Assembly (NCBI GenBank): GCA_944325765.1
Contig: CALVBH010000098.1
Coordinates: forward strand, 1 to 60,780
DNA from: an uncultured Bacteroidales bacterium
GTDB lineage: Bacteria; Bacteroidota; Bacteroidia; Bacteroidales; UBA932
DNA length: 60,780 nt
Direction of reading: 5' to 3'
The position numbers and the translations under genes are program-made. A model generated the notes under the pieces. It did no database searches. It was not told the DNA's origin and worked only from the letters and a program-made list of their open reading frames with translations. The stretch's first letter is position 1. Each line of letters opens with the position of its first letter. Positions 36,210 through 57,256 of this stretch are shown piece after piece.

Positions 36210-37514
36210 ATGGGCAGACTTTCACTTCAGACGCAGACACTCGGGTGTTCGAAGAACACGGTGGATACCGAGCATATCCTGGCCCGGCTGGAGAACGTAT
36301 ATGACATACTGCCGGAGAATGGCCCGGGACCATGCGACGTATTCCTGATCAATACCTGCGGCTTCATAGGTGATGCGAAGGAGGAATCGGTCTCTGTCAT
36401 TCTGGAAGCTGTCAGACGCAAGACGCTGGGTGAAATAGGACGTATCGTGGTTTTCGGCTGCCTTTCCCAAAGATACGCAGTTGAAATGCCCGGGCTGATT
36501 CCTGAAGTGGACGCCTGGTTCGGGGCCGTGGATTTCGAGCCGCTGCTGAGCTATCTCGGCGTTGCCCCGGATGAATGCAAGTCCGGTCCGCGGCTCCTGA
36601 CTACTCCACGCCACTATGCTTATCTGAAGATTTCGGAAGGCTGTGACAGGAGGTGTTCGTACTGTGCGATACCGTTTATCAGGGGAAAACACCGTTCAGT
36701 CCCGATGGAGGAACTGGAGGCGGAAGCCCGTATGCTGGCTCTCAAAGGGGTCAGGGAACTGATAATCATAGCCCAGGATACGACTTATTACGGGCTGGAT
36801 TTGTACCGCAGGCGTTCTCTTGCCGCACTCCTGCGGAGACTTTCAGCCATAGACGGAATAGAATGGATACGTATCCACTATTCGTATCCGGCGGATTTCC
36901 CGGAGGACGTCCTGGAAGAGATGGCGCAGAATCCCAAGGTTTGCCGCTATATGGACATTCCGCTCCAGCATATTTCCGACATAGTCCTGAAAAACATGCG
37001 CAGGAATGTCGACGGGGCCTGGACGAGGTCCCTGATATCGAAAATGAGGGAAAAGGTTCCGGGTGTCGTCCTCAGGACGACAATGATAGTTGGCCATCCG
37101 GGCGAGGGAAGGAAAGAGTTCGGAGAACTTCTCGACTTCGTGGAAAAGGCCCGTTTCGAACGGTTGGGGGCTTTCATGTATTCGGAAGAAGAAGGCACTT
37201 TCGGGGCCGGTCATTTCCGCGACTCGGTTTCTCCTGCGACAAAACGGCGCCGGCTGGACCGCCTTATGGATTTGCAGAGAGGCATTTCCCTGGAATTCAA
37301 CCGCTCCAGGATCGGCTCCGCAGTCAGGGTAATTGCCGACAGCTGTGCGGACGGCATCCTTGTATGCCGGAGCGAGTTCGAGAGCCCTGAAGTGGACGGA
37401 GAGATTTTAGTCGGATGCCCCCGCACCATAGACCCCGAATCACTGGTCGGCACTTTCATAAATGTCAGGATTACCGGTGCGGACGAATACGACCTCACTG
37501 CCGAAATGATATGA
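36210..37514 (+). CDS. rimO: Ribosomal protein S12 methylthiotransferase RimO
   Basis: A radical SAM enzyme that methylthiolates the conserved aspartate of ribosomal protein S12. The N-terminal UPF0004 domain has TLGCSKNTVDTEHILA, INTCGFIGDAKEES and FGCLSQRY with its three cluster cysteines; the radical SAM motif CDRRCSYCAIP follows at about residue 147; and a C-terminal TRAM domain ends NVRITGADEYDL. The GCSKN signature distinguishes it from MiaB. It has 434 residues and overlaps the next gene as ATGA. Confidence 0.96.
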   Translation: MGRLSLQTQTLGCSKNTVDTEHILARLENVYDILPENGPGPCDVFLINTCGFIGDAKEESVSVILEAVRRKTLGEIGRIVVFGCLSQRYAVEMPGLIPEVDAWFGAVDFEPLLSYLGVAPDECKSGPRLLTTPRHYAYLKISEGCDRRCSYCAIPFIRGKHRSVPMEELEAEARMLALKGVRELIIIAQDTTYYGLDLYRRRSLAALLRRLSAIDGIEWIRIHYSYPADFPEDVLEEMAQNPKVCRYMDIPLQHISDIVLKNMRRNVDGAWTRSLISKMREKVPGVVLRTTMIVGHPGEGRKEFGELLDFVEKARFERLGAFMYSEEEGTFGAGHFRDSVSPATKRRRLDRLMDLQRGISLEFNRSRIGSAVRVIADSCADGILVCRSEFESPEVDGEILVGCPRTIDPESLVGTFINVRITGADEYDLTAEMI

Positions 37515-38476
37515 ATTTATATAACTTTACGGATATGGGAAATTACAAAGGAAAATTCGCATTCATCTTCGCGGTCCTGCTGTCGGGATTCTGTATGTCG
37601 TCCTGCGGACCGACGGCCTATCTTCTCGATATCGAAACCAGCCATCCGTCGGAAGCCGGTGTCGATCTGGCCGGGAAGACCATATCTGCCGTATATCTTG
37701 ACAACGGGGATGTCGGGGATTCCCTCTTTTCGGCTGCACTTGCCACATCCTTCGTCACCAGAATGGAAAAAGATTATTTCCAGGGGGACAGTCTGATTTC
37801 CATTTATTGTCTCGACAAGGCTCCTGAAACCGATTATTCTTCGAAAAGGGAGATGCTGGAAATACTGATGGATACCGGTTCCGATGTCGTATTCGTGTTC
37901 GATGCCCCTGAATTTCAGGACAATGTCGCAGTGAATCTTGAATCGGACCCGGACGGCTCATTTACGGCAAAGGCCTCTTTCCCGTTCTCGATAGAGCTTT
38001 ATGTCTATGATTCGATGGACAAGCGCGATACCGTACTGAGGTTCCGTGGTGCATCGGTAGCGGACGCATCATCGGCCGTAAGCGGAAAGGAGAGCCGTGA
38101 TGCCCTTGGGGATATCCTGAAATCACAGCTCGGAGGTACGGCCCGCAGGCTCGGAGACGCCTCGGGAGACAAGTTTTCCCCTGTCTGGAAAATGGAGGAG
38201 GTCCTGTTTTTCCTGTATGATTCGAACAGTTGGTACGAGACCTATTTCTACGTCCGTGATTATGAGTGGCAAAAGGCGATAGACATCTGGATGTCCATGC
38301 TCGACACCGCGAATATGGAAAAAAAGGCCTGTATCGAATACAATATCGCTGCAGCCTGCTATCTCTCAGGACAGTACGATCTCGCTTCGGACTGGCTGGA
38401 ACTCTCCCGCAGGCATTTCAACCTTTCTCCGTATACGGACAGCCTCGGTAAGAAATTAGCCGGACGCAGCAAGTAG
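37511..38476 (+). CDS. Lipoprotein with TPR-like C-terminus (DUF6340-like)
   Basis: A 321-residue exported lipoprotein. The signal peptide FAFIFAVLLSGFCMSSCG ends in a lipobox. The middle has a VVFVFDAPEF strand, and the C-terminus has a TPR-like pair (EWQKAIDIWMSML then YNIAAACYLSGQYDLASDWL). The pattern resembles DUF6340 proteins as I recall them. Two starts are possible: 37511, overlapping rimO as ATGA, or 37535 (MGNYKGK), which gives a tidier signal peptide. The role is unknown. Confidence 0.75.
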   Translation: MNLYNFTDMGNYKGKFAFIFAVLLSGFCMSSCGPTAYLLDIETSHPSEAGVDLAGKTISAVYLDNGDVGDSLFSAALATSFVTRMEKDYFQGDSLISIYCLDKAPETDYSSKREMLEILMDTGSDVVFVFDAPEFQDNVAVNLESDPDGSFTAKASFPFSIELYVYDSMDKRDTVLRFRGASVADASSAVSGKESRDALGDILKSQLGGTARRLGDASGDKFSPVWKMEEVLFFLYDSNSWYETYFYVRDYEWQKAIDIWMSMLDTANMEKKACIEYNIAAACYLSGQYDLASDWLELSRRHFNLSPYTDSLGKKLAGRSK

Positions 38477-38494
38477 GTATCAATTCTGACACAC

Positions 38495-38540
38495 TTAACG
38501 GGGCTGCGCAAAATTTATCATTTTGACACAGCCCCGTTAA
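38495..38540. terminator. Bidirectional terminator hairpin, dispersed family copy 2
   Basis: TTAACGGGGCTG... pairs with ...CAGCCCCGTTAA across a loop, with one mismatch and a one-base bulge. It lies between the lipoprotein gene (plus) and RNase P RNA (minus), so it can end both. Its core is identical to the hairpin at 32313-32348. Confidence 0.75.
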
Positions 38541-38545
38541 TTTCA

Positions 38546-38895
38546 GGTATGACCGTAAGCCGGTTTCTGTTCCTGTGCTGCCATTTATCTTCGCAGCCTA
38601 CCCCCTGACATCGGACGGGCAGCCCTTGACTGTCAGTATATTTGGCCTTGCAGGCTTCAGGGACGTACGCGGACGATGTCGCCATGGCCCGCCGTGAGCT
38701 CTTGCCTCACATTTTCACCCTTGCATATCCGGAGATATGCGGTTATTTTCTGTTACGTTCACCACAAGGTTACCCCTGTCTGCGCTTTCCGCAGTGAAGT
38801 GCCCTTTCCTGTCCGGACTTTCCTCACGGTTCCGGCCGCACAGGCGGCCGGACGGCGCCATCTGCATGGCACCCCGCGCGGCAGCTCGTCATACC
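38546..38895 (-). ncRNA. rnpB: RNase P RNA (catalytic subunit)
   Basis: On the minus strand the universal signature GAGGAAAGTCCGGAC is followed by the P4-proximal conserved blocks and a 3' end ACAGAAACCGGCTTACGG. The terminal helix P1 pairs GGTATGAC (38895-38888) with GTCATACC (38553-38546). The length of about 350 nt is typical of type A RNA. A GC-rich P3 hairpin and the GCTGCC strand of P2/P4 are also visible. A degenerate -7 box TATATTCA lies just upstream. No protein-coding ORF in this stretch is credible. Confidence 0.94.
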
Positions 38896-38920: not shown

Positions 38921-40180
38921 TTATTTGTATCCCAATTTACGTTCCATACGGTCGTTAGAGCGTATGGTCCTTTCGACATTGCGTTTCAGTGCCGGAGTGA
39001 TGTCCTTGCATACCTTGTGGCAGCACATCTCCAGCGTGTACATTCTTCCTACGCAGAAGTTCGTATGTTCGCATCCGCTGCAATGATTTTCATCGGCCTT
39101 CATCTTGTTCACGAAATCCGTATCCTCAAGCACTGCACGGCCCATCTGAAGCAGTTCGAACCCGCTGTCCATCACCTTGTCTGCATCGGCTCTCGACAGT
39201 ACGCCGCCGACATATACCAAAGGCATATCGGGAAGAGCCTTCCTGAATTTCATGGAATCCTCGAGAAAGAAAAGATGTCTGAACGGAACAGTCGGACATA
39301 CGATTTTCCCTCCCAGCAGAACCCCGAGCTTCAGCCACCACTGTGTCTTCATCGGCATATAGTGGGTGATGGTCCTTACCGGAAACTGCCCCCTCATTAC
39401 GTACATCGGCGCACGGCTTACGAATCCGCCGGACAGAACCAGCGCATCCGCCCCGCATCTCTGCAGTTCCCTGGCCACTTCTATGCTTTCATCGATTTCC
39501 ATACCGCCTCTGAATCCGTCTCTGGTATTCATTTTGACGAAAATGGCCACTTTCCCTTTCCCGGCATCCGTGACCGCCTTCATACACCTGCGCATGAACC
39601 GCATCCTGTTTTCCAGAGAACCTCCGTATTCGTCCTTTCTCCTGTTAGTGTACGGGGAAAGAAACTGGGAAATCAGGTATCCGTGCCCGGCATGGATTTC
39701 CACAGCATCGAACCCGGCCTTGATACTGAGTTCGACTGCCTTTCCGTAAGCTTCCACCACTTCGTCGATTTCCTTGACGGTCATTCCGTGCACGAAAGTA
39801 GGGGAGTACAGGTTGAATCCGCTGCTGGCACCGAGCGGCCGGCAGCCGCAGATTCTCCTGTGGGACATATTGCCGCAGTGTCCGAGCTGGATGGACGCCC
39901 TGGCCCCTTCCCGGTGGATGGCATCAGTAAGCCTTTTCAGTTCCGGTACTATTTCTTCCCTCATCCAAAGCTGCCTTTCGAACGACAGCCCGCTGCGGCA
40001 GACGGCCGCGTATGCTACCGTAGTCATGCCTATTCCTCCGCGGGCTACGGCGGTATGGTAGTCGAAAAGGGACTGTGACGGCGAATTGTTTTCGCACATA
40101 CCCTCGAATGCCGCCGACCTTACAGTCCTGTTCCGCAGTTCTATGGGACCTATCTTTACAGGTGTAAAAAGATTGCTCAT
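38921..40180 (-). CDS. Old-yellow-enzyme family FMN reductase (NADH:flavin oxidoreductase)
   Basis: A TIM-barrel ene-reductase of 419 residues. The N-terminus LFTPVKIGPIELRNRTVRSA and the active-site block EIHAGHGYLISQFLSPYTNR with DEYGGSLENRMRF are the family signature. The C-terminus has a cysteine cluster CSGCEHTNFCVGRMY...CCH that probably ligates an iron-sulfur centre, but the flavodoxin-like FAD/NADPH domain of the larger 2,4-dienoyl-CoA reductase and BaiCD/BaiH proteins is absent. It is seven bases behind a steroid 5-alpha-reductase homologue. By analogy with gut bacterial steroid and bile-acid clusters it could reduce the C4-C5 or C1-C2 double bond of 3-oxo steroids. Confidence 0.88.
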   Translation of the reverse strand: MSNLFTPVKIGPIELRNRTVRSAAFEGMCENNSPSQSLFDYHTAVARGGIGMTTVAYAAVCRSGLSFERQLWMREEIVPELKRLTDAIHREGARASIQLGHCGNMSHRRICGCRPLGASSGFNLYSPTFVHGMTVKEIDEVVEAYGKAVELSIKAGFDAVEIHAGHGYLISQFLSPYTNRRKDEYGGSLENRMRFMRRCMKAVTDAGKGKVAIFVKMNTRDGFRGGMEIDESIEVARELQRCGADALVLSGGFVSRAPMYVMRGQFPVRTITHYMPMKTQWWLKLGVLLGGKIVCPTVPFRHLFFLEDSMKFRKALPDMPLVYVGGVLSRADADKVMDSGFELLQMGRAVLEDTDFVNKMKADENHCSGCEHTNFCVGRMYTLEMCCHKVCKDITPALKRNVERTIRSNDRMERKLGYK

Positions 40181-40187
40181 ATTTCGT

Positions 40188-40967
40188 TTACCAGATAAAA
40201 GGTATCAGATTTTTCTTTTTCAGTTGACGGTATTCGTCTCCGAATTCCTGTTCGTATTTTTCGGTCAGGGACCTGGATCTCGGAGCCAGGTTCGCGAATG
40301 TCCATACAGCGAAGAGAAGCCCCGCAGGAGACCAGGTCAGAACGGCATAGCCGACCCATTCGGTCAGTTCTCCGAAATAATTGGCTGAAGTCACGTATTT
40401 GTACAGCCCTTTCTTAGGAATATAATGCTTCGTATCCCCCGGCTGGCGCAGATGCCTGATGACATGGTCGGAATCCAGATTTATCAGCATCCCGGTCAGG
40501 AAAACCAGAGTGCCGATGATGAACTGCGGAGAAGTGAGCCATTCGCTGCCGTATGTGCCGGCAGGAGCCTGTTCGAAGAGCCAGCCTCCGATGAAGTAGG
40601 AATTCAGACCGTTGAATACCATTCCCATAGCCATAATGACAACAGGCATTTCCCCCTTGCCTCTCATCAGGAACGGGAAAATGAAGGCTCTTTGGAAGTA
40701 ATGGACGAGAAACAGTCCGGCCATTATCAGGAGGACGGTCCTGTCATTGCCGGTATCGGCGCCTGAAATCAGATAATCTGCCACATACAGCATCAGAAAG
40801 ACGAATGCCGGGGCTTCCATAATGACCCAGGCGGTCCTGTTGTTGATCTTGGGACCCCAGTTCGCCGTAGAAAGATAGCCGTAACCTGCCTTGAAGAAGA
40901 AAAGGGCAATGAATACTACGACTGCCATCGCGAACATTACGGTCATTAATATATAATATGTATTCAT
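40188..40967 (-). CDS. Steroid 5-alpha-reductase homologue (SRD5A family membrane protein)
   Basis: The start at ATG 40967 gives 259 residues with six or seven membrane segments. The second half reads almost like mammalian SRD5A1: LTGMLINLDSDHVIRHLR, PGDTKHYIPKKGLYKYVT, ANYFGELTEWVGYAVLTWS and a C-terminal EKYEQEFGDEYRQLKKKN before IPFIW. The family reduces the C4-C5 double bond of 3-oxo-delta4 steroids with NADPH in the membrane. Homologues in gut Odoribacteraceae and Parabacteroides act on bile acids (established knowledge from memory). Here it heads a two-gene operon with the flavoenzyme at 38921-40180. Substrate is inferred. Confidence 0.9.
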   Translation of the reverse strand: MNTYYILMTVMFAMAVVVFIALFFFKAGYGYLSTANWGPKINNRTAWVIMEAPAFVFLMLYVADYLISGADTGNDRTVLLIMAGLFLVHYFQRAFIFPFLMRGKGEMPVVIMAMGMVFNGLNSYFIGGWLFEQAPAGTYGSEWLTSPQFIIGTLVFLTGMLINLDSDHVIRHLRQPGDTKHYIPKKGLYKYVTSANYFGELTEWVGYAVLTWSPAGLLFAVWTFANLAPRSRSLTEKYEQEFGDEYRQLKKKNLIPFIW

Positions 40968-40992
40968 TAAGATGACTGGTATCAAATTCCCG

Positions 40993-41000
40993 CAAAGTTA
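40993..41000 (-). promoter_or_regulatory. -7 promoter box TAACTTTG for the steroid-reductase operon
   Basis: A perfect box on the minus strand, 25 bases before the ATG at 40967. Confidence 0.65.
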
Positions 41001-41069: not shown

Positions 41070-42716
41070 ATGAATCCCAAGTATGTCTTCGTTTCAGGAG
41101 GAGTCGCATCGTCGCTCGGAAAGGGAATAATATCCGCATCACTGGCAAAACTGCTCCAGGCCCGCGGCCTGAGAGTCACCATCCAGAAATTCGACCCGTA
41201 TATCAATGTCGACCCCGGTACTTTGAATCCGTATGAACATGGCGAATGCTATGTGACCGACGACGGGGCGGAGACGGACCTGGATCTCGGACATTACGAG
41301 CGTTTTCTCGGAGTGCATACATCCAAGGCCAACAACGTGACCACGGGGAAAATATACAATACCGTAATCAACAAGGAAAGGGAAGGCGCCTATCTCGGCA
41401 AGACCGTCCAGATCGTTCCCCATATCACGGATGAGATAAAGAGAAGGATGCTGCTGCTCGGCAAGACCGGAAAGTACGATGTCATCATCACGGAAATAGG
41501 CGGTACGGTGGGCGATATGGAATCCCAGCCTTTCGTGGAAGCTGTCAGACAGCTCCAGTGGGAACTCCCTGAGGAAGACTGCGTGACCATACATCTGACA
41601 CTCGTCCCGTATCTGAGCGCAGCCAAGGAACTGAAGACCAAACCGACCCAGCACTCTGTACAGATGCTTCAGCAGAGCGGCGTGCAGCCCGATATCATCG
41701 TCTGCCGTACAGAGCACAGGCTGACTCCGGAACTGAGAAAGAAGGTGGCCCTCTTCTGCAATGTCAAGCCCGGTCATGTCATCGAGTCAATCGATGCGCC
41801 GTCCATCTATTCCGTGCCGCTGAACATGCAGGCCGAGAAACTGGACCGGCTTGTTCTCGATCATTTCGGTCTGAAGAATATGCCCGAACCGGACCTTACT
41901 GAATGGAAACGTTTTCTGGAAAAGCTGTTCCACCCGAAATCGGAGGTCGATATAGCACTCGTGGGCAAATACGTGGAACTTCAGGATGCCTACAAGTCCA
42001 TTCTCGAATCATTCGTACATGCCGGAGCCGCCAATGAGTGCAAGGTCAATGTCCACAGCATACACAGCGAATTCATCGATCCGGCCAATGTCGGGGAGAA
42101 ACTGTCAGGAATGGACGGAATCCTCGTCGCCCCGGGATTCGGGGAAAGAGGCCTGGAAGGGAAGATACTTGCCATCAAATATGCCAGGGAAAACAATGTC
42201 CCGTTCTTCGGAATCTGTCTCGGGATGCAGATGTGCGTGGTGGAATTCGCCAGAGACGTTTTGGGGCTGAAAGAAGCCGTATCCACTGAAGTCAACCCTG
42301 CCACGAAATATCCCGTCATCGACCTGATGGAAGACCAGAAGAGTACGACCATCAAGGGCGGTACGATGCGTCTCGGGGCGTACGACTGTAAAATCGCGAA
42401 GAATTCCCTTGCGGAAAAGATATACGGAACAGACATGATTTCCGAAAGGCACCGCCACAGGTATGAGTTCAACAACGACTATCTCGACATGATAGAGTCG
42501 GCAGGCATGAAGGCTACGGGGAAAAACCCGGATACGGGCCTCGTGGAAATTGTCGAGATTCCCGCGCATCCGTTCTTTATCGGAGTACAGTTCCATCCCG
42601 AACTGAAAAGTACCCCGGAACATCCGCAGCCTATTTTCGTGGCTTTTGTAAAGGCGGCAATGAAGTTCAGGGACGAACACAGGGAAAAGCGGCAGGATGC
42701 TGCCGCCGGGAAATGA
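41070..42716 (+). CDS. pyrG: CTP synthase
   Basis: Converts UTP to CTP with glutamine as nitrogen donor. The N-terminal synthetase domain shows KYVFVSGGVASSLGKGI and KFDPYINVDPGTLNP then HGECYVTDDGAETDLDLGHY. The C-terminal class I glutaminase has APGFGERG, the nucleophile in FFGICLGMQM, and the histidine/glutamate pair in GVQFHPELKS. The 548 residues are normal. It overlaps the next gene by four bases. Confidence 0.98.
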   Translation: MNPKYVFVSGGVASSLGKGIISASLAKLLQARGLRVTIQKFDPYINVDPGTLNPYEHGECYVTDDGAETDLDLGHYERFLGVHTSKANNVTTGKIYNTVINKEREGAYLGKTVQIVPHITDEIKRRMLLLGKTGKYDVIITEIGGTVGDMESQPFVEAVRQLQWELPEEDCVTIHLTLVPYLSAAKELKTKPTQHSVQMLQQSGVQPDIIVCRTEHRLTPELRKKVALFCNVKPGHVIESIDAPSIYSVPLNMQAEKLDRLVLDHFGLKNMPEPDLTEWKRFLEKLFHPKSEVDIALVGKYVELQDAYKSILESFVHAGAANECKVNVHSIHSEFIDPANVGEKLSGMDGILVAPGFGERGLEGKILAIKYARENNVPFFGICLGMQMCVVEFARDVLGLKEAVSTEVNPATKYPVIDLMEDQKSTTIKGGTMRLGAYDCKIAKNSLAEKIYGTDMISERHRHRYEFNNDYLDMIESAGMKATGKNPDTGLVEIVEIPAHPFFIGVQFHPELKSTPEHPQPIFVAFVKAAMKFRDEHREKRQDAAAGK

Positions 42717-43480
42717 TGAAGACCCTGTTCGGAACTGTGCTGTCGTGCCTTGCCCTGACAGTGTCCTTCACTTTGTCCGCGCAGGTGCGGCAGTACAGGG
42801 TAAATGTCGTGGAGGAATATCCTCATGATGAGACTTCATATACGCAGGGGCTGTTTTTTCATGAAGGTCAGATGTATGAGAGCACAGGACAGAACGGTTC
42901 TTCCACATTCAGGAAGGTGGATATGGAGACCGGAAAGCCTTTGAGGAAACTGGATTTTGCCAGAAAGTATTTCGTGGAAGGTTCCGTGGTACTGGACGGA
43001 TGCCTGTATATACTGACCTGGACGAGCAAAGTGGCCTTTATCTATGACATAGAGACACTTGAATACAGGTCGACGGTATCGTATCCGAGACAGGGATGGG
43101 GGCTGACGACAGACGGCGAGTCCCTGATAGCCAGTGACGGTTCGTCCAGACTCTTCTTCCTCGACAGGAATCTGAATACGCTCCGGTCCGTCCAGGTGAG
43201 ACTGCGCGGCAAACCGCTCAACTATCTGAATGAACTGGAATATATCGACGGGAAAATTTGGGCGAACGTGTATACTACCAACATGATAGCGATTATCGAC
43301 CCTGTCAGCGGAAACGTCGAGGGCGTGGTAGACTGCAGCGGCCTCCTTCCGGATAAACTGAAAACCTCCCGGACGGATGTCCTGAACGGGATAGCATACG
43401 ACGGAAGAACGGGAAATGTCTATCTTACCGGGAAAAACTGGCCCCGCCTGTATCAGGTGAAGATAGAGGAAAAGAAATGA
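42713..43480 (+). CDS. Glutaminyl-peptide cyclotransferase (glutamine cyclotransferase), exported
   Basis: Forms N-terminal pyroglutamate on peptides. The 255 residues start with a signal peptide (ending TLSAQ at about 23), and the five-bladed propeller is evident from SYTQGLFFHEGQMYESTGQN, FVEGSVVLDGCLYILTWTSK, WGLTTDGESLIASDGSSRLF, LNELEYIDGKIWANVYTTN and VLNGIAYDGRTGNVYLTGKN. Bacterial members are widespread in Bacteroidetes periplasms, where most secreted proteins begin with Gln after cleavage. It is coupled to pyrG by ATGA overlap. Confidence 0.92.
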   Translation: MMKTLFGTVLSCLALTVSFTLSAQVRQYRVNVVEEYPHDETSYTQGLFFHEGQMYESTGQNGSSTFRKVDMETGKPLRKLDFARKYFVEGSVVLDGCLYILTWTSKVAFIYDIETLEYRSTVSYPRQGWGLTTDGESLIASDGSSRLFFLDRNLNTLRSVQVRLRGKPLNYLNELEYIDGKIWANVYTTNMIAIIDPVSGNVEGVVDCSGLLPDKLKTSRTDVLNGIAYDGRTGNVYLTGKNWPRLYQVKIEEKK

Positions 43481-43506
43481 TAGTCTATCCTTATAAACTT
43501 ATTATT

Positions 43507-44088
43507 ATGAAACTCGCGGTATTTGTATGCATCTTATGTTCGATGCTTCTGGCAGGCAGCATCACTGCCTCTGCACAGTACAATGACATTTACAGGAGGG
43601 GTGTCAACTATTTTTCCGACGGGGAGAAACTGACTGACGTTCAGCTTTCCGCTCTTCTGGACAGGTCTGACAGCGGAATTACCTTTGATGATGTGGAAAA
43701 ATACAGGAAAGGTTTCAAGACCGGCCGTGGGCTGCTGATAGGTTTCGGCACACTGACAGGGGTGGGACTCCTCACGACGGGTATAGGTACAGTCGGTCTG
43801 ATGATCGAGGGTGTGGCCGTCGGTATCGGCACTGCATTTGTCGGCCCTTTGGCCGCTTTGGGAGGGGCTGATCCGGCTATTGCATTCGACAGCAAGTTTT
43901 ATGGAGTGACTGTAGCCGGCGTATGCGCCACTCTGACGGGGATTGCCGGAATAGTAGCCGGAACGACGGTCCTGTGTGTATACAAGAAGCGTATGAACAA
44001 TGTAGCGGACGTGTGCAATTCCGCTCCATCCGTCACGCTTTCGTTCGGAGCCCAGAAATACGGCACGGGTGTGGCCTTGAATTTTTAG
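43507..44088 (+). CDS. Exported glycine-rich hypothetical membrane protein
   Basis: A 193-residue protein of unknown function. The signal peptide MKLAVFVCILCSMLLAGSIT ends ASAQ. A charged segment (about 30-75) follows, then two hydrophobic stretches unusually rich in glycine (GRGLLIGFGTLTGVGLLTTG with GTVGLMIEGVAVGIGTAF, and a second near 145-165), ending in a beta-like tail SFGAQKYGTGVALNF. The terminal phenylalanine is reminiscent of outer-membrane beta-barrel ends. The ATG at 43507 fits the signal peptide; 43477 would overlap the previous gene by four bases. Confidence 0.7.
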   Translation: MKLAVFVCILCSMLLAGSITASAQYNDIYRRGVNYFSDGEKLTDVQLSALLDRSDSGITFDDVEKYRKGFKTGRGLLIGFGTLTGVGLLTTGIGTVGLMIEGVAVGIGTAFVGPLAALGGADPAIAFDSKFYGVTVAGVCATLTGIAGIVAGTTVLCVYKKRMNNVADVCNSAPSVTLSFGAQKYGTGVALNF

Positions 44089-44344
44089 GCAGCGGGCGGT
44101 TTCCGGGAATGTCCTGCAGACATTCGAGAGTGAGCAGGGGCGCCACAGCGGCTCTGGTTTGAAAAATATGACATATTGCGGGGGTGCCCGGGCAGGAGCT
44201 TGTCTCCTGCCGGCACTTCGGAAAGACCCTTTCCGAAGTGCTTGAGGTCGACTCAAAAGGAGGAATTTCAAGGCTTGCGAAGATGAGAAAACCGGAGTTT
44301 ACTTGTCGTAAATGAGGATTTTCGAATCAAGCGTAACGCGGAAA
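44089..44344 (+). other. Structured non-coding leader upstream of the TPP riboswitch
   Basis: About 255 bases contain no credible gene but have strong structure. Hairpin A pairs GGCAGGAG (44191-44198) with CTCCTGCC (44204-44211). Hairpin B pairs GCACTTCGGAAAG (44213-44225) with CTTTCCGAAGTGC (44229-44241), a perfect 13-bp stem. GTGCC at 44184-44188 could pair with GGCAC at 44212-44216, which overlaps hairpin B, so the two pairings exclude one another. No T-run follows, so it is not an ordinary terminator. Confidence 0.65.
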
Positions 44345-44420
44345 TTACCCTTTTGGGGCGATCTCGGGGCTGAGAGAGACCCATTGAACCTGATACGGCC
44401 AGTACCGTCGAAGGGAAGCA
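44345..44420 (+). promoter_or_regulatory. TPP (THI-box) riboswitch
   Basis: The thiamine-diphosphate aptamer is recognised by CGGGGCTGAGAGAGACCC, then TGAACCTGATACGGCCAGTA and ACCGTCGAAGGGAAGC in the canonical order. The P1 helix forms from CCCTT (44348-44352) and AAGGG (44411-44415). The aptamer ends about 50 bases before the TonB-dependent receptor start. The space between holds a TTCG-capped hairpin (CGCA/TGCG) and TTCCCCCTT at 44444-44452, which can pair with part of the P1 3' strand. Binding of TPP is expected to lower expression of the receptor. Confidence 0.93.
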
Positions 44421-44469
44421 GATTTCTCTGGCGCATTCGTGCGTTCCCCCTTGCATAAAACTAAATATT

Positions 44470-46782
44470 ATGCGAGGTTTTTTATTTTGTGCAGCACTTG
44501 CAGTGCTGGTGCCGTTTTCCGCAGCAGCTGCGGAAAACGAAGCGGCCGGAGATCCGGCCGATGCTGTTGAGAGGCTCGACAGCGCAGTAGTTTCAGTTTC
44601 ACGTGCCGGAGCACGTACTCCCGTGACCTACACAATGATCGGAAAATCCGAACTGAAGCAGGTCAATCCCATGTTTTCACTGCCTATGTCGCTGAACCTT
44701 CAGCCTTCGGTCGTATCCGTGAACGAAGGCGGAACGGGACTCGGCTATTCAAAAATGTTTGTCCGCGGCAGCAAAGGCTCCCAGATAAACGTTACGCTGA
44801 ACGGAATAACCCTGAATGATGCCGAATCCCAGGAAGTATTCTGGGTGAATATCCCGTCGCTGGGCAAAATCCTGAGTTCAGTGCAGCTTCAGCGCGGTTT
44901 GGGAACTTCCGCCAACGGGCCGGGCGCATTCGGGGCAAGCGTGAATATGAGCACTTCGTCCGTGGGCCCGGAGCCGTACGTTTCGGCCGAAGTATCGGCA
45001 GGTTCCTACAATACGTTCATGTCCACCGTGGCGGCAGGAACGGGGCTGACGAAGTCCGGACTTTATTTCGATTTCGCCTATTCGAGGAACTACACCGACG
45101 GCTATATCAGGAACGCCAAGGCCAAGGTGCAGTCCGCGCTGGCCGTACTCGGCTGGATGAAGGGAAACAATTCCCTGAAGCTCACTTATCTGATGGGCGA
45201 CCAGCATACCGGTATCACCTGGAACGGAATCGACCTTGAAACGTATGAAACGGACCGCAGGTACAACAGCGCAGGCGAGTATTATGATGAATTCGGGAAT
45301 GTGCATTACTATGACAACCAGACCGACAACTACACGCAGCACCATCTCCAGCTGAACTATACGCACCAGTTTCCGAAGAACCTCGTCTGGAGCACGACGC
45401 TGAATTTCACGAAAGGTGACGGTTATTATGAGGAATATGAAGCCGGAGAGGATGCATCCGCATTCAATATAGACCCTTCGATATTGAAGAATCCTTCCGA
45501 CGGACAGGTTCTGAACAGTCCTGAAGGGGACTTCATCGTAAGGGAAGCCATGGACAACTGGTATCTGGTGCTCAATTCCGAAGTCCGCTATGCAGCGGAC
45601 AGGCTGAATGTCACGGGCGGCGTAAACCTTTCCCGCTATGACGGAGACCATTTCGGCCGTTTGCTCTGGGGCAACAGGCTTCCCGAGGATTTCGACTATG
45701 ACGGCTACAATGCAGCCGATACCTGGTATATGAACAACGGCCTGAAAAGCGAACTGAACGTGTTCGCGCGGGCTGAATACACTCCTGTGGAATGGCTTAC
45801 GGCATACGCTGACCTGCAGTACAGGGGCATTTCCCTGAAAATGAAAGGTCCCGACGATGACGGCAGCCCGTTGGACTACAGCACGTCCTGGAATTTCTTC
45901 AATCCCCGCGCAGGCCTGACCTTCCATTGGTCGCCGAGGCATAAGGCATACGTATCGGCCGCCCTCGGTAACCGCGAACCCGGCAGAAGCGACATCAAGG
46001 ATGTGATAATATCCAATTACTGGATAGGCGTCAACGGCGGTGACGGGAAAAGGGATGAACTGAAACCGGAGAAAATGGTAGATGTCGAGATCGGCTACAC
46101 CTACACGGCTCCGAAAATCACGGCATCCGCGAACCTGTATTTCATGGAATATTTCGATTTGCTCATAGAGTCCGGCCGTCTGAGCGATTCCGGTTATGCC
46201 ATCAAGGAGAATGCCGGCAGGGGATACCGCAGGGGAGTGGAGCTGGCAGCTGCCTGGGAGGCTCTTCCATGGTTGAGGGTCGACGCCAATACTACATTGA
46301 GCCTCAATAAAATCAAGGATTATGTCGCCTATATTCCGGTCTATGACGACGATTACAGTTTCCTTCGGAATTTCAGACAGGAATGCGGCAGGACCGACAT
46401 GCTTATGTCTCCGCCGGTTATCGGTATGGTGCAGCTCAGCTTTACCCCGTTCCGGAATACGGCCCGCAATTCGTTGAAGACCACAACTCTTACGATAAAC
46501 GGGAAATATGTCGGCAAACAGTATCTCGACAATACTTCGAGCAATGACCGCAGCATTCCGGGATATTTCGTGTCCAATCTCAGCCTTACTCATGAGTTCG
46601 ATCTCAAAAAGGGCGTGCTGGGCATCGGCGGATACATAAACAACTTGTTCAACAATATGTATTACGCAGACGGAGGCGCTTCCCGTGAAATGTACGATGG
46701 CAGTGACGATATCACCACGTATGTCTGGATTTATCCTCAGGCCCCGGTGAATTTCATGCTGCGCCTGAGCTACAGTTTCTGA
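44470..46782 (+). CDS. TonB-dependent outer-membrane receptor, presumed thiamine transporter
   Basis: The 770-residue product has a signal peptide (about 1-21), a TonB-box-like DSAVVSVSRAG, a plug domain (residues 45-160, with SKMFVRGSKGSQINVTLNG and GPGAFGASVNM), and a 22-stranded barrel ending in MLRLSYSF with the C-terminal phenylalanine needed for BAM insertion. It lacks the carboxypeptidase-like N-terminal extension of SusC proteins. The TPP riboswitch in its leader makes thiamine or a thiamine phosphate the likely ligand, uptake being energised by TonB-ExbB-ExbD. No thiamine synthesis genes are adjacent. Confidence 0.92.
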   Translation: MRGFLFCAALAVLVPFSAAAAENEAAGDPADAVERLDSAVVSVSRAGARTPVTYTMIGKSELKQVNPMFSLPMSLNLQPSVVSVNEGGTGLGYSKMFVRGSKGSQINVTLNGITLNDAESQEVFWVNIPSLGKILSSVQLQRGLGTSANGPGAFGASVNMSTSSVGPEPYVSAEVSAGSYNTFMSTVAAGTGLTKSGLYFDFAYSRNYTDGYIRNAKAKVQSALAVLGWMKGNNSLKLTYLMGDQHTGITWNGIDLETYETDRRYNSAGEYYDEFGNVHYYDNQTDNYTQHHLQLNYTHQFPKNLVWSTTLNFTKGDGYYEEYEAGEDASAFNIDPSILKNPSDGQVLNSPEGDFIVREAMDNWYLVLNSEVRYAADRLNVTGGVNLSRYDGDHFGRLLWGNRLPEDFDYDGYNAADTWYMNNGLKSELNVFARAEYTPVEWLTAYADLQYRGISLKMKGPDDDGSPLDYSTSWNFFNPRAGLTFHWSPRHKAYVSAALGNREPGRSDIKDVIISNYWIGVNGGDGKRDELKPEKMVDVEIGYTYTAPKITASANLYFMEYFDLLIESGRLSDSGYAIKENAGRGYRRGVELAAAWEALPWLRVDANTTLSLNKIKDYVAYIPVYDDDYSFLRNFRQECGRTDMLMSPPVIGMVQLSFTPFRNTARNSLKTTTLTINGKYVGKQYLDNTSSNDRSIPGYFVSNLSLTHEFDLKKGVLGIGGYINNLFNNMYYADGGASREMYDGSDDITTYVWIYPQAPVNFMLRLSYSF

Positions 46783-56446: not shown

Positions 56447-57256
56447 ATGATATTTCCTGAACAGATATGGATATTGGCCGCGGTTTCATTTGTCGTTAGC
56501 GCACTCGGCTGGATTAAATTCGTCTATTTCATTTCTCTCGGCTATGGTTTTTCCATAGCCGCAATGTCGCTGTACATGATGGCGGCATACTGCGGTTCCC
56601 TGACATTGCCTTCAGCGGTATTATGCCTTATACTTATGGCCTACGGCTGCCGGCTCGGCGGGTTTCTTCTGCATCGGGAACTTAAGAGCGCCTCATACAG
56701 GAAAGAACTTCCGTCACTGACGAAGACTTCGGCAAGGCTCGGTTTCGGAACCAGGATGGCGATATGGCTTTCAGTCGTAGTCCTGTATGTCTGTCAGGTG
56801 TCTCCGGTCTTCTACAGACTGTCCAACGGTACGGACCGGTATGCATCGGAAGGATGGGTCTGGGCCGGTGCCGCAGTAATGCTGGCAGCGCTTGTACTTG
56901 AGTCGGTCGCCGACTCTCAGAAATCCGCTTCCAAAAAGCTCCGTCCCGACAGATTCTGCGATACAGGTCTGTTCAGGATTGTCCGCTGTCCGAACTATTT
57001 TGCGGAAATCCTGTTCTGGACAGGATGCCTTATATCCGGTATCGGCACTTTGTCGGGATGGCAGTGGTCATTGGCTGCCGCAGGGTATCTGTGCATAGTA
57101 TACATTATGTTCGGCGGTGCCAGAAGACTTGAAATACGGCAGAACAGGCGCTATGGCTCCGACCCCGGGTATCGGCGCTATGCTGCCTCCACTCCTGTCA
57201 TACTTCCGTTTGTCCCGCTCTATTCCGTCGAACGATATACCTTTCTCAAAGGCTGA
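56447..57256 (+). CDS. DUF1295 membrane protein (steroid-5-alpha-reductase superfamily)
   Basis: A 269-residue polytopic membrane protein with six or seven hydrophobic segments. The C-terminal half has the DUF1295 signature: CDTGLFRIVRCPNYFAEILF, then WTGCLISGIGTLSGWQWSL and a terminal RRLEIRQNRRYGSDPGYRRY. This places it in the same superfamily as the 40188-40967 gene, but it lacks the close SRD5A1-like stretch, so a steroid substrate is not implied. DUF1295 proteins are widely distributed and mostly of unknown function. It is monocistronic. Confidence 0.85.
   Translation: MIFPEQIWILAAVSFVVSALGWIKFVYFISLGYGFSIAAMSLYMMAAYCGSLTLPSAVLCLILMAYGCRLGGFLLHRELKSASYRKELPSLTKTSARLGFGTRMAIWLSVVVLYVCQVSPVFYRLSNGTDRYASEGWVWAGAAVMLAALVLESVADSQKSASKKLRPDRFCDTGLFRIVRCPNYFAEILFWTGCLISGIGTLSGWQWSLAAAGYLCIVYIMFGGARRLEIRQNRRYGSDPGYRRYAASTPVILPFVPLYSVERYTFLKG

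Follow-up and report, generated by a model that had tools for sequence, protein, structure and literature searches.

A conserved 5-alpha-reductase/flavoenzyme gene pair in an uncultured Bacteroidales bacterium, a probable two-gene form of a known bile acid module

The window analyzed here, a 60,780-nucleotide stretch of DNA from an uncultured Bacteroidales bacterium (contig CALVBH010000098.1), carries on its minus strand a gene for a membrane protein of the SRD5A steroid 5-alpha-reductase (5AR) type, followed after a 7-nucleotide (nt) spacer by a gene for a flavoprotein of the old yellow enzyme (OYE) family. This pair is real, well conserved, and largely known, being most likely a two-gene form of the Bacteroidota bile acid module in which a 5AR is joined by a 5-beta-reductase (5BR) and, in its complete form, a 3-beta-hydroxysteroid dehydrogenase (3betaHSDH). 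We consider it likely that the two proteins convert the A/B ring junction of a steroid, most probably a bile acid. A preliminary description of this DNA had already paired an SRD5A-type reductase with an OYE flavoprotein across that gap, and both open reading frames (ORFs), with their matches to PF02544 and PF00724, bear it out. Chance is not a credible source of the pair, because 34 of the 35 genomes found to have both genes have them side by side.

The published cluster consists of a 5AR, a 3betaHSDH, and an NADH:flavin oxidoreductase, and disruption of the 5AR in Parabacteroides merdae stopped the formation of allo products, including allolithocholic acid (alloLCA) derivatives (PMC10382948). 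An indirect pathway has been described in which a 5-beta-reductase yields a delta4 compound, from which 5AR and 3betaHSDH give an iso-allo acid (PMC9645264). In the passages drawn on here, 5-beta-reductase, 5-alpha-reductase, and 3betaHSDH are cited in Bacteroides or Bacteroidetes (PMC11271093, PMC12697870), 5-alpha-reductase is tabled for three Bacteroidales species (PMC12692668), and a 5AR annotation is given for nearly all Bacteroidetes isolates from chicken cecum (PMC6069880). Inhibition of Gram-positive pathogens and effects on T cells are reported for flat bile acids such as isoallolithocholic acid (isoalloLCA) (PMC10382948, PMC11271093). To predict who makes what, it therefore helps to know where among gut bacteria the ring-flipping core occurs and where the final step is missing.

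As in the cluster described for isoalloLCA in P. merdae, Odoribacteraceae, and Bacteroides, the gene after the 5AR in the window, on the same strand, encodes a protein of the NADH:flavin oxidoreductase type. The same gene order, with the same short OYE, is present in named Phocaeicola, Bacteroides, Parabacteroides, and Butyricimonas (Odoribacteraceae) loci. Unlike the three-gene cluster, the window pair has no adjoining short-chain dehydrogenase/reductase (SDR) and no close one elsewhere in the genome, and its neighbors are a pyrG-like gene on one side and an RNase P RNA gene on the other. Because no 3betaHSDH (SDR) adjoins the pair, we file the window as a two-gene variant rather than a complete copy of the cluster.

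Identity of the two proteins

The product of the first gene matches Steroid_dh (PF02544) over residues 106 to 259 with 132.4 bits (E value, 1.7e-38), passing the curated cut-off of 22.6, versus 30.1 bits for DUF1295 and 21.8 bits for PEMT. By phmmer, it scored 173.9 bits against PbSRD5A (PDB 7c83; residues 12 to 258), 126.7 bits against human SRD5A2 (PDB 7bw1; residues 19 to 259), and 37.5 bits against the enoyl-CoA reductase PDB 22of, and a profile of 38 sequences gave the same three proteins 238, 181.2, and 58.7 bits. A methyltransferase or DUF1295 identity is ruled out on profile scores. A prenyl-lipid reductase identity is disfavored only, on a comparison set of PbSRD5A, SRD5A2, and 22of that lacked SRD5A3.

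Residues were mapped by applying the numbering of PMC7815742 to 111 aligned 5AR rows, comprising the window, 25 genus relatives, four other genomes of the order (L018, L020, L022, L028), and 81 named-record loci, three of which are identical to genus rows. Along with near full-length homology to PbSRD5A and SRD5A2, the window protein keeps the catalytic Glu (E51) and Tyr (Y90) of the QEY motif, as do all 111 rows. The Gln of that motif is Met in every row, however, so that it reads M-E-Y. In human SRD5A2, Q56A and Q56L abolished activity, while H231A was an exception in that activity was not significantly lowered (PMC7815742). Thirteen residues are given as hydrogen bonding to NADPH in PbSRD5A (PMC7815742), and 10 of these are identical in the window protein: Y29, N163, D167, R174, N196, Y197, E200, T223, N226, and R230 (Y32, N159, D163, R170, N192, Y193, E196, T219, N222, and R226 in the published numbering). 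These ten are identical in all 111 rows, and for transmembrane helices (TM) 5 to 7 this amounts to nine of ten positions. The three that differ are R34, which is variable; Y177, which is His throughout; and H230, which is Ile in 95 rows and Leu in 16. Because the Bacteroidota 5AR group shares Met at the Gln position, we file the membrane protein with that group and say only that it may work like SRD5A1/2. The presence of Met in all Bacteroidales members examined calls into question the generality of a motif that is essential in the human enzyme.

The flavoprotein matches PF00724 over residues 3 to 271 (188.7 bits; 2.2e-55) and is the sole match to that family in the window's genome, which is 88% complete. 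Its closest NCBIfam model is BaiCD (NF041087), with 211.8 bits against a cut-off of 825. With BaiCD-type Fe-S flavoenzymes and the clostridial 5-beta-reductase ci2350 it has the OYE/FMN domain in common, and a cysteine-rich element, which we take to be present in BaiCD also, follows the barrel. In contrast to BaiCD, it lacks the FAD/NAD(P) domain (419 amino acids [aa] versus a 642-position model), and its element reads CxHx3Cx10C with variable extra Cys. The "C-terminal cysteine cluster" of the preliminary description is therefore present but better worded in this way. Among 103 OYEs taken from 5AR loci, 97 have CxHx3Cx10C, and 77 of these have an extra Cys among the four preceding residues. 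Six OYEs do not have the element: contig ends truncate L014 and L104, L023 and L100 are shortened versions, and L090 and L094 lack it despite their full length. C370, N374, C376, M380, and Y381 occur in all 101 OYEs that reach them, H372 in 99 of 101, and C387 in 99 of 99.

The short form of the flavoenzyme had been proposed as a difference from the described clusters. It is not one: 87 of the 103 OYEs are 404 to 425 aa long, four are shorter, and 12 are longer (maximum, 486), the over-long ones probably reflecting a mechanical choice of start. The OYEs of named loci have the same short length and are 53 to 67% identical to that of the window (70% for one 77-residue fragment). The accompanying claim of a distinct module, possibly with a prenyl-lipid substrate, is not supported. 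It rests chiefly on this nonexistent difference, whereas for the membrane protein 5-alpha-reductases far outscore the DUF1295, lipid-methyltransferase, and enoyl-CoA reductase families, and most NADPH contacts are kept.

Conservation of the pair and the missing dehydrogenase

The preliminary description had called for a search for the same two genes elsewhere, and the pair proved widespread. We searched the window's genome and 100 relatives, counting 5AR matches of at least 230 bits and OYE matches of at least 500 bits. The counts omit a single 5AR match at 115 bits, four more at 21 to 26 bits, and all OYE matches that score no higher than 120 bits. A 5AR was found in 37 of the 101 genomes, an OYE in 36, and both in 35. 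In 34 of these 35 (the exception is G063), the genes lie on one strand with a gap of at most 113 nt, a count that includes G024, whose OYE is cut by a contig end, and G018. The OYE match of G018 (C78:28359-29564) holds a single in-frame TGA, which marks either a pseudogene or an assembly error. OYE is present in 35 of the 37 5AR genomes, and 5AR in 35 of the 36 OYE genomes, G035 (72% complete) having the OYE without a 5AR. In G027, an SDR comes after the OYE-less 5AR. G061, a genome of the order, has two 5AR genes (contigs C68 and C64; 47% identity each), and none of the listed matches to the paired flavoprotein falls in it; perhaps the reductase serves another purpose there.

A scan of GTDB representative genomes gave at least 496 confirmed relatives, of which the best 80 by similarity to the Phocaeicola protein, a set that leans to Bacteroidaceae, were taken as named loci. 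Among these best 80, an OYE lies within 600 nt of the 5AR on the same strand in 71 and further off in 2; it is absent despite room in 4 (L056, L068, L106, L111), and 3 had insufficient sequence (L049, L070, L099). Across 103 loci, 5AR and OYE protein distances correlate with an r of 0.719 (top of 999 shuffles, 0.105), a statistic to which species ancestry contributes and in which it was left.

Both genes are present in 31 of the 61 genomes searched from the window's genus, possibly Cryptobacteroides, which brings a large Bacteroidales genus within the range of the allo-bile-acid gene set. The 5ARs of the genus fall into two groups, that of the window (14 genomes including its own; 66 to 88% identity to the window) and a second (18 genomes; 49 to 54%). 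The tree was built by a quick method from a set that included 12 of the 18 proteins of the second clade, and its outgroup branches are very long; it serves this within-genus grouping and not rooting or the SRD5A question. An upstream neighbor drawn from window positions 41070 to 46782 is present in all 13 mapped members of the window's clade, and the downstream genes of positions 36210 to 38476 were seen in 6 of the 13 within the stretch taken. These shared flanks suggest one ancestral site.

As the preliminary description stated, no hydroxysteroid dehydrogenase adjoins the pair: there is no SDR at the window locus. The genome, at 88% completeness, has five matches to the Phocaeicola SDR at 26 to 31% identity and no close relative of it. 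At an E value of 1e-15 or less, that SDR has matches in 12 genus genomes, none of them among the 14 of the window's clade. No SDR was seen near the pair in rough gene maps of the 13 other clade members, which were made by longest-ORF calling and miss some real genes, such as the OYEs of L121, L133, and L141; the neighbors in these maps include a DUF-type 501-aa protein, an acyltransferase, a GNAT protein, and others. In the second 5AR group, 10 of the 18 genomes have an SDR match (E value of 1e-15 or less) within 2 kb of the pair or the 5AR. A single in-frame TAA lies within the SDR match G058:C31:2787-3578, again a pseudogene or an assembly error.

For 69 of the adjacent pairs among the best 80 named loci, at least 900 nt of sequence follow the OYE. 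Within 1 kb, 42 of these have an SDR at least 50% identical to that of Phocaeicola, 14 have another SDR, and 13 have none, although the count misses SDRs unlike the query, and L066 has an SDR further off. Because of these 13, the lack of an SDR does not make the window pair unique, and the absence that the preliminary description had listed as a difference is shared with named loci. The conserved core is thus the 5AR with its flavoenzyme and does not extend to the full three-gene cluster.

Proposed role and alternatives

A 3-oxo-delta4 steroid, as proposed in the preliminary description, appears to be the best-supported substrate class. The flavoprotein, acting as 5BR, would interconvert a 3-oxo-5beta steroid and the 3-oxo-delta4 enone through FMN, with the C3 ketone held in its His/His/Tyr pocket. 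The 5AR would then bind the C3 ketone of the enone via E51 and Y90 and direct the NADPH hydride to the alpha face of C5, giving a flat 3-oxo-5alpha steroid. In series (5beta to delta4 to 5alpha), A/B-cis steroids would become A/B-trans. Two enzymes of opposite stereochemistry make sense as successive steps that reset the A/B junction, and not as reductions in competition with each other. With no 3betaHSDH in the operon, the product may leave as a 3-oxo-allo steroid, or C3 may be reduced by another enzyme or organism. The sequences show the identity of the genes, their co-conservation, the conserved residues, and the promoter box; we infer the delta4-3-oxo substrate, the stereochemistry, the direction or reversibility of the flavoenzyme, and its electron donor or acceptor.

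A bile acid context may be provided by one choloylglycine-hydrolase-family protein in the window's genome (PF02275, 198 bits). It is encoded on contig C83 (L159, 1435-2526, minus strand) and, by eye, has a signal peptide ending before Cys26. Matches to PF02275 of at least 170 bits occur in 12 of the 14 genomes of the window's clade, in none of the 18 other 5AR carriers of the genus, and in 1 of the 29 remaining genus genomes. This distribution is only consistent with bile acid use, because the 170-bit threshold was chosen after the scores were seen, 8 of those 18 carriers have weaker matches that still pass the family cut-off, and the clade is a single lineage.

Several points weigh against conversion of a bile acid A/B junction by the pair. 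Steroid activity in the window's genus is a prediction from sequence comparison, and the P. merdae and Odoribacteraceae clusters are known by description, with Parabacteroides massiliensis L075 and Butyricimonas L069 compared as stand-ins. Gln56, needed in human SRD5A2 (PMC7815742), is replaced by Met, and the BaiCD match of the OYE is confined to residues 2 to 260 and stays under the cut-off. The 5-beta-reductase role of the flavoprotein is itself put forward as a hypothesis in the review PMC10382948, and the table of PMC12692668 used here lists 5-beta-reductase activity for Firmicutes only (H. hathewayi and Lachnospiraceae). In addition, the 5AR stands without the OYE in G027, G061, and 4 of the 80 named loci that have room for one; the genome has no close relative of the Phocaeicola SDR; and the hydrolase falls under the cut-offs of both the bile-salt-hydrolase model (180.6 bits) and the penicillin-V-amidase model (173.8 bits).

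It is also possible, but unlikely, that the pair acts on non-bile-acid steroid enones, such as the 3-oxo-delta4 products of plant sterols or hormones, with each enzyme making one stereoisomer for detoxification or electron disposal and the flavoenzyme being reductive only. PbSRD5A responded chiefly to progesterone (PMC7815742), a clostridial 5-beta-reductase works on hormones (PMC12238238), a relative with an identical 5AR (L100, equal to L023) comes from horse feces, and the operon lacks the SDR of most named clusters, all of which would fit. The same short-OYE clusters are found, however, in genera tied to bile acid conversion, and the strong hydrolase match in most of the clade, though confounded by relatedness, also speaks for bile acids. 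We think it highly improbable that the substrate of the membrane enzyme is a non-steroid lipid enone, reduced in the manner of polyprenol or enoyl-CoA reductases, and that the OYE is an unrelated general ene-reductase. The 5AR superfamily does include enoyl-CoA and polyprenol reductases, and there is a weak profile match to 22of. Nevertheless, the same profile scores PbSRD5A and SRD5A2 far higher (SRD5A3 being outside the comparison), the catalytic Glu of all 111 rows aligns with Tyr in 22of, and all but one of the 36 OYE genomes also have the 5AR.

Within the proposed conversion of the A/B junction, the SDR-free pair might, though this is quite unlikely, be a self-contained, redox-balanced A/B-ring isomerase. 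The flavoenzyme would serve chiefly as a 3-oxo-5beta dehydrogenase, and electrons would return to the M-E-Y 5AR through NADP(H) or a metal or Fe-S center of CxHx3Cx10C, taking cis to trans at no net electron cost. The Cys/His element in a flavoenzyme without a pyridine-nucleotide domain, the M-E-Y motif, and the missing third step in the clade are worth specialist attention.

Layout of the locus and other observations

Coordinates are collected in Table 1. The start of the 5AR is backed by thirteen close relatives that align over residues 1 to 259. The -7 box noted upstream in the preliminary description holds up: TAnnTTTG, which we take to be the Bacteroidales -7 consensus, lies 5' of the 5AR in all 14 members of the window's clade, the window included, and TTTG or TTGA occurs 15 to 17 nt further upstream in 11 of them, the exceptions being the window, L016, and L017.

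Table 1. Features of the 5AR/flavoprotein locus (window coordinates)
Feature	Position	Strand	Basis
5AR, predicted SRD5A-type membrane 3-oxo-steroid 5-alpha-reductase, 259 aa; ATG at 40967	40188..40967	-	ORF; profile and structure-sequence matches
5BR-like OYE/FMN flavoprotein, short form, 419 aa; ATG at 40180	38921..40180	-	ORF; profile matches
Bacteroidales -7 promoter box TAACTTTG	40993..41000	-	Begins 33 nt before the 5AR ATG
M50-E51 codons, matching Q56-E57 of human SRD5A2 (catalytic Glu; Gln to Met)	40815..40820	-	Alignment; motif role from PMC7815742
Y90 codon, matching catalytic Y91 of SRD5A2	40698..40700	-	Alignment
N163 to R174, including D167, TM5 NADPH-contact residues	40446..40481	-	Homology
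N196-Y197 and E200, TM6 NADPH-contact residues	40368..40382	-	Homology
T223, N226, and R230, TM7 NADPH-contact residues	40278..40301	-	Homology
OYE active-site block H163-x2-H166-x-Y168	39677..39694	-	Aligned to EIHAAHGYL block of PDB 3krz
C-terminal Cys/His element C367-x2-C370-x-H372-x3-C376-x10-C387	39020..39082	-	Alignment of OYEs

Upstream and divergent from the pair is a gene at 41070-42716 that, from its sequence, we take to be pyrG-like. Downstream, an RNase P RNA gene (Rfam; 38540-38864, minus strand) begins 56 nt past the flavoprotein stop on the same strand. A small SRP RNA of the Bacteroidales type (Rfam) is also found, in keeping with a Bacteroidales-like window. At 44344-44433 (plus strand), a TPP riboswitch scores barely above the Rfam gathering score (54.5 versus 54.3). 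It sits upstream of a gene at 44470-46782 whose product is, judging from its sequence, presumably TonB-receptor-like, and the two together possibly relate to thiamine uptake.

Among the named loci, L034 (OY726067.1), labeled as a Phocaeicola massiliensis plasmid, has a 5AR-OYE-SDR cluster nearly identical to that of the type-strain chromosomal locus L035. The genes beside it are, as we take them from sequence, aconitase-, isocitrate-dehydrogenase-, and citrate-synthase-like, and L034 is probably a chromosomal piece labeled as a plasmid. Finally, window positions 56447 to 57256 (plus strand) encode another, distantly related member of the 5AR superfamily, a 269-aa protein of the DUF1295 family (PF06966, 103.8 bits) whose Steroid_dh match stays below threshold.

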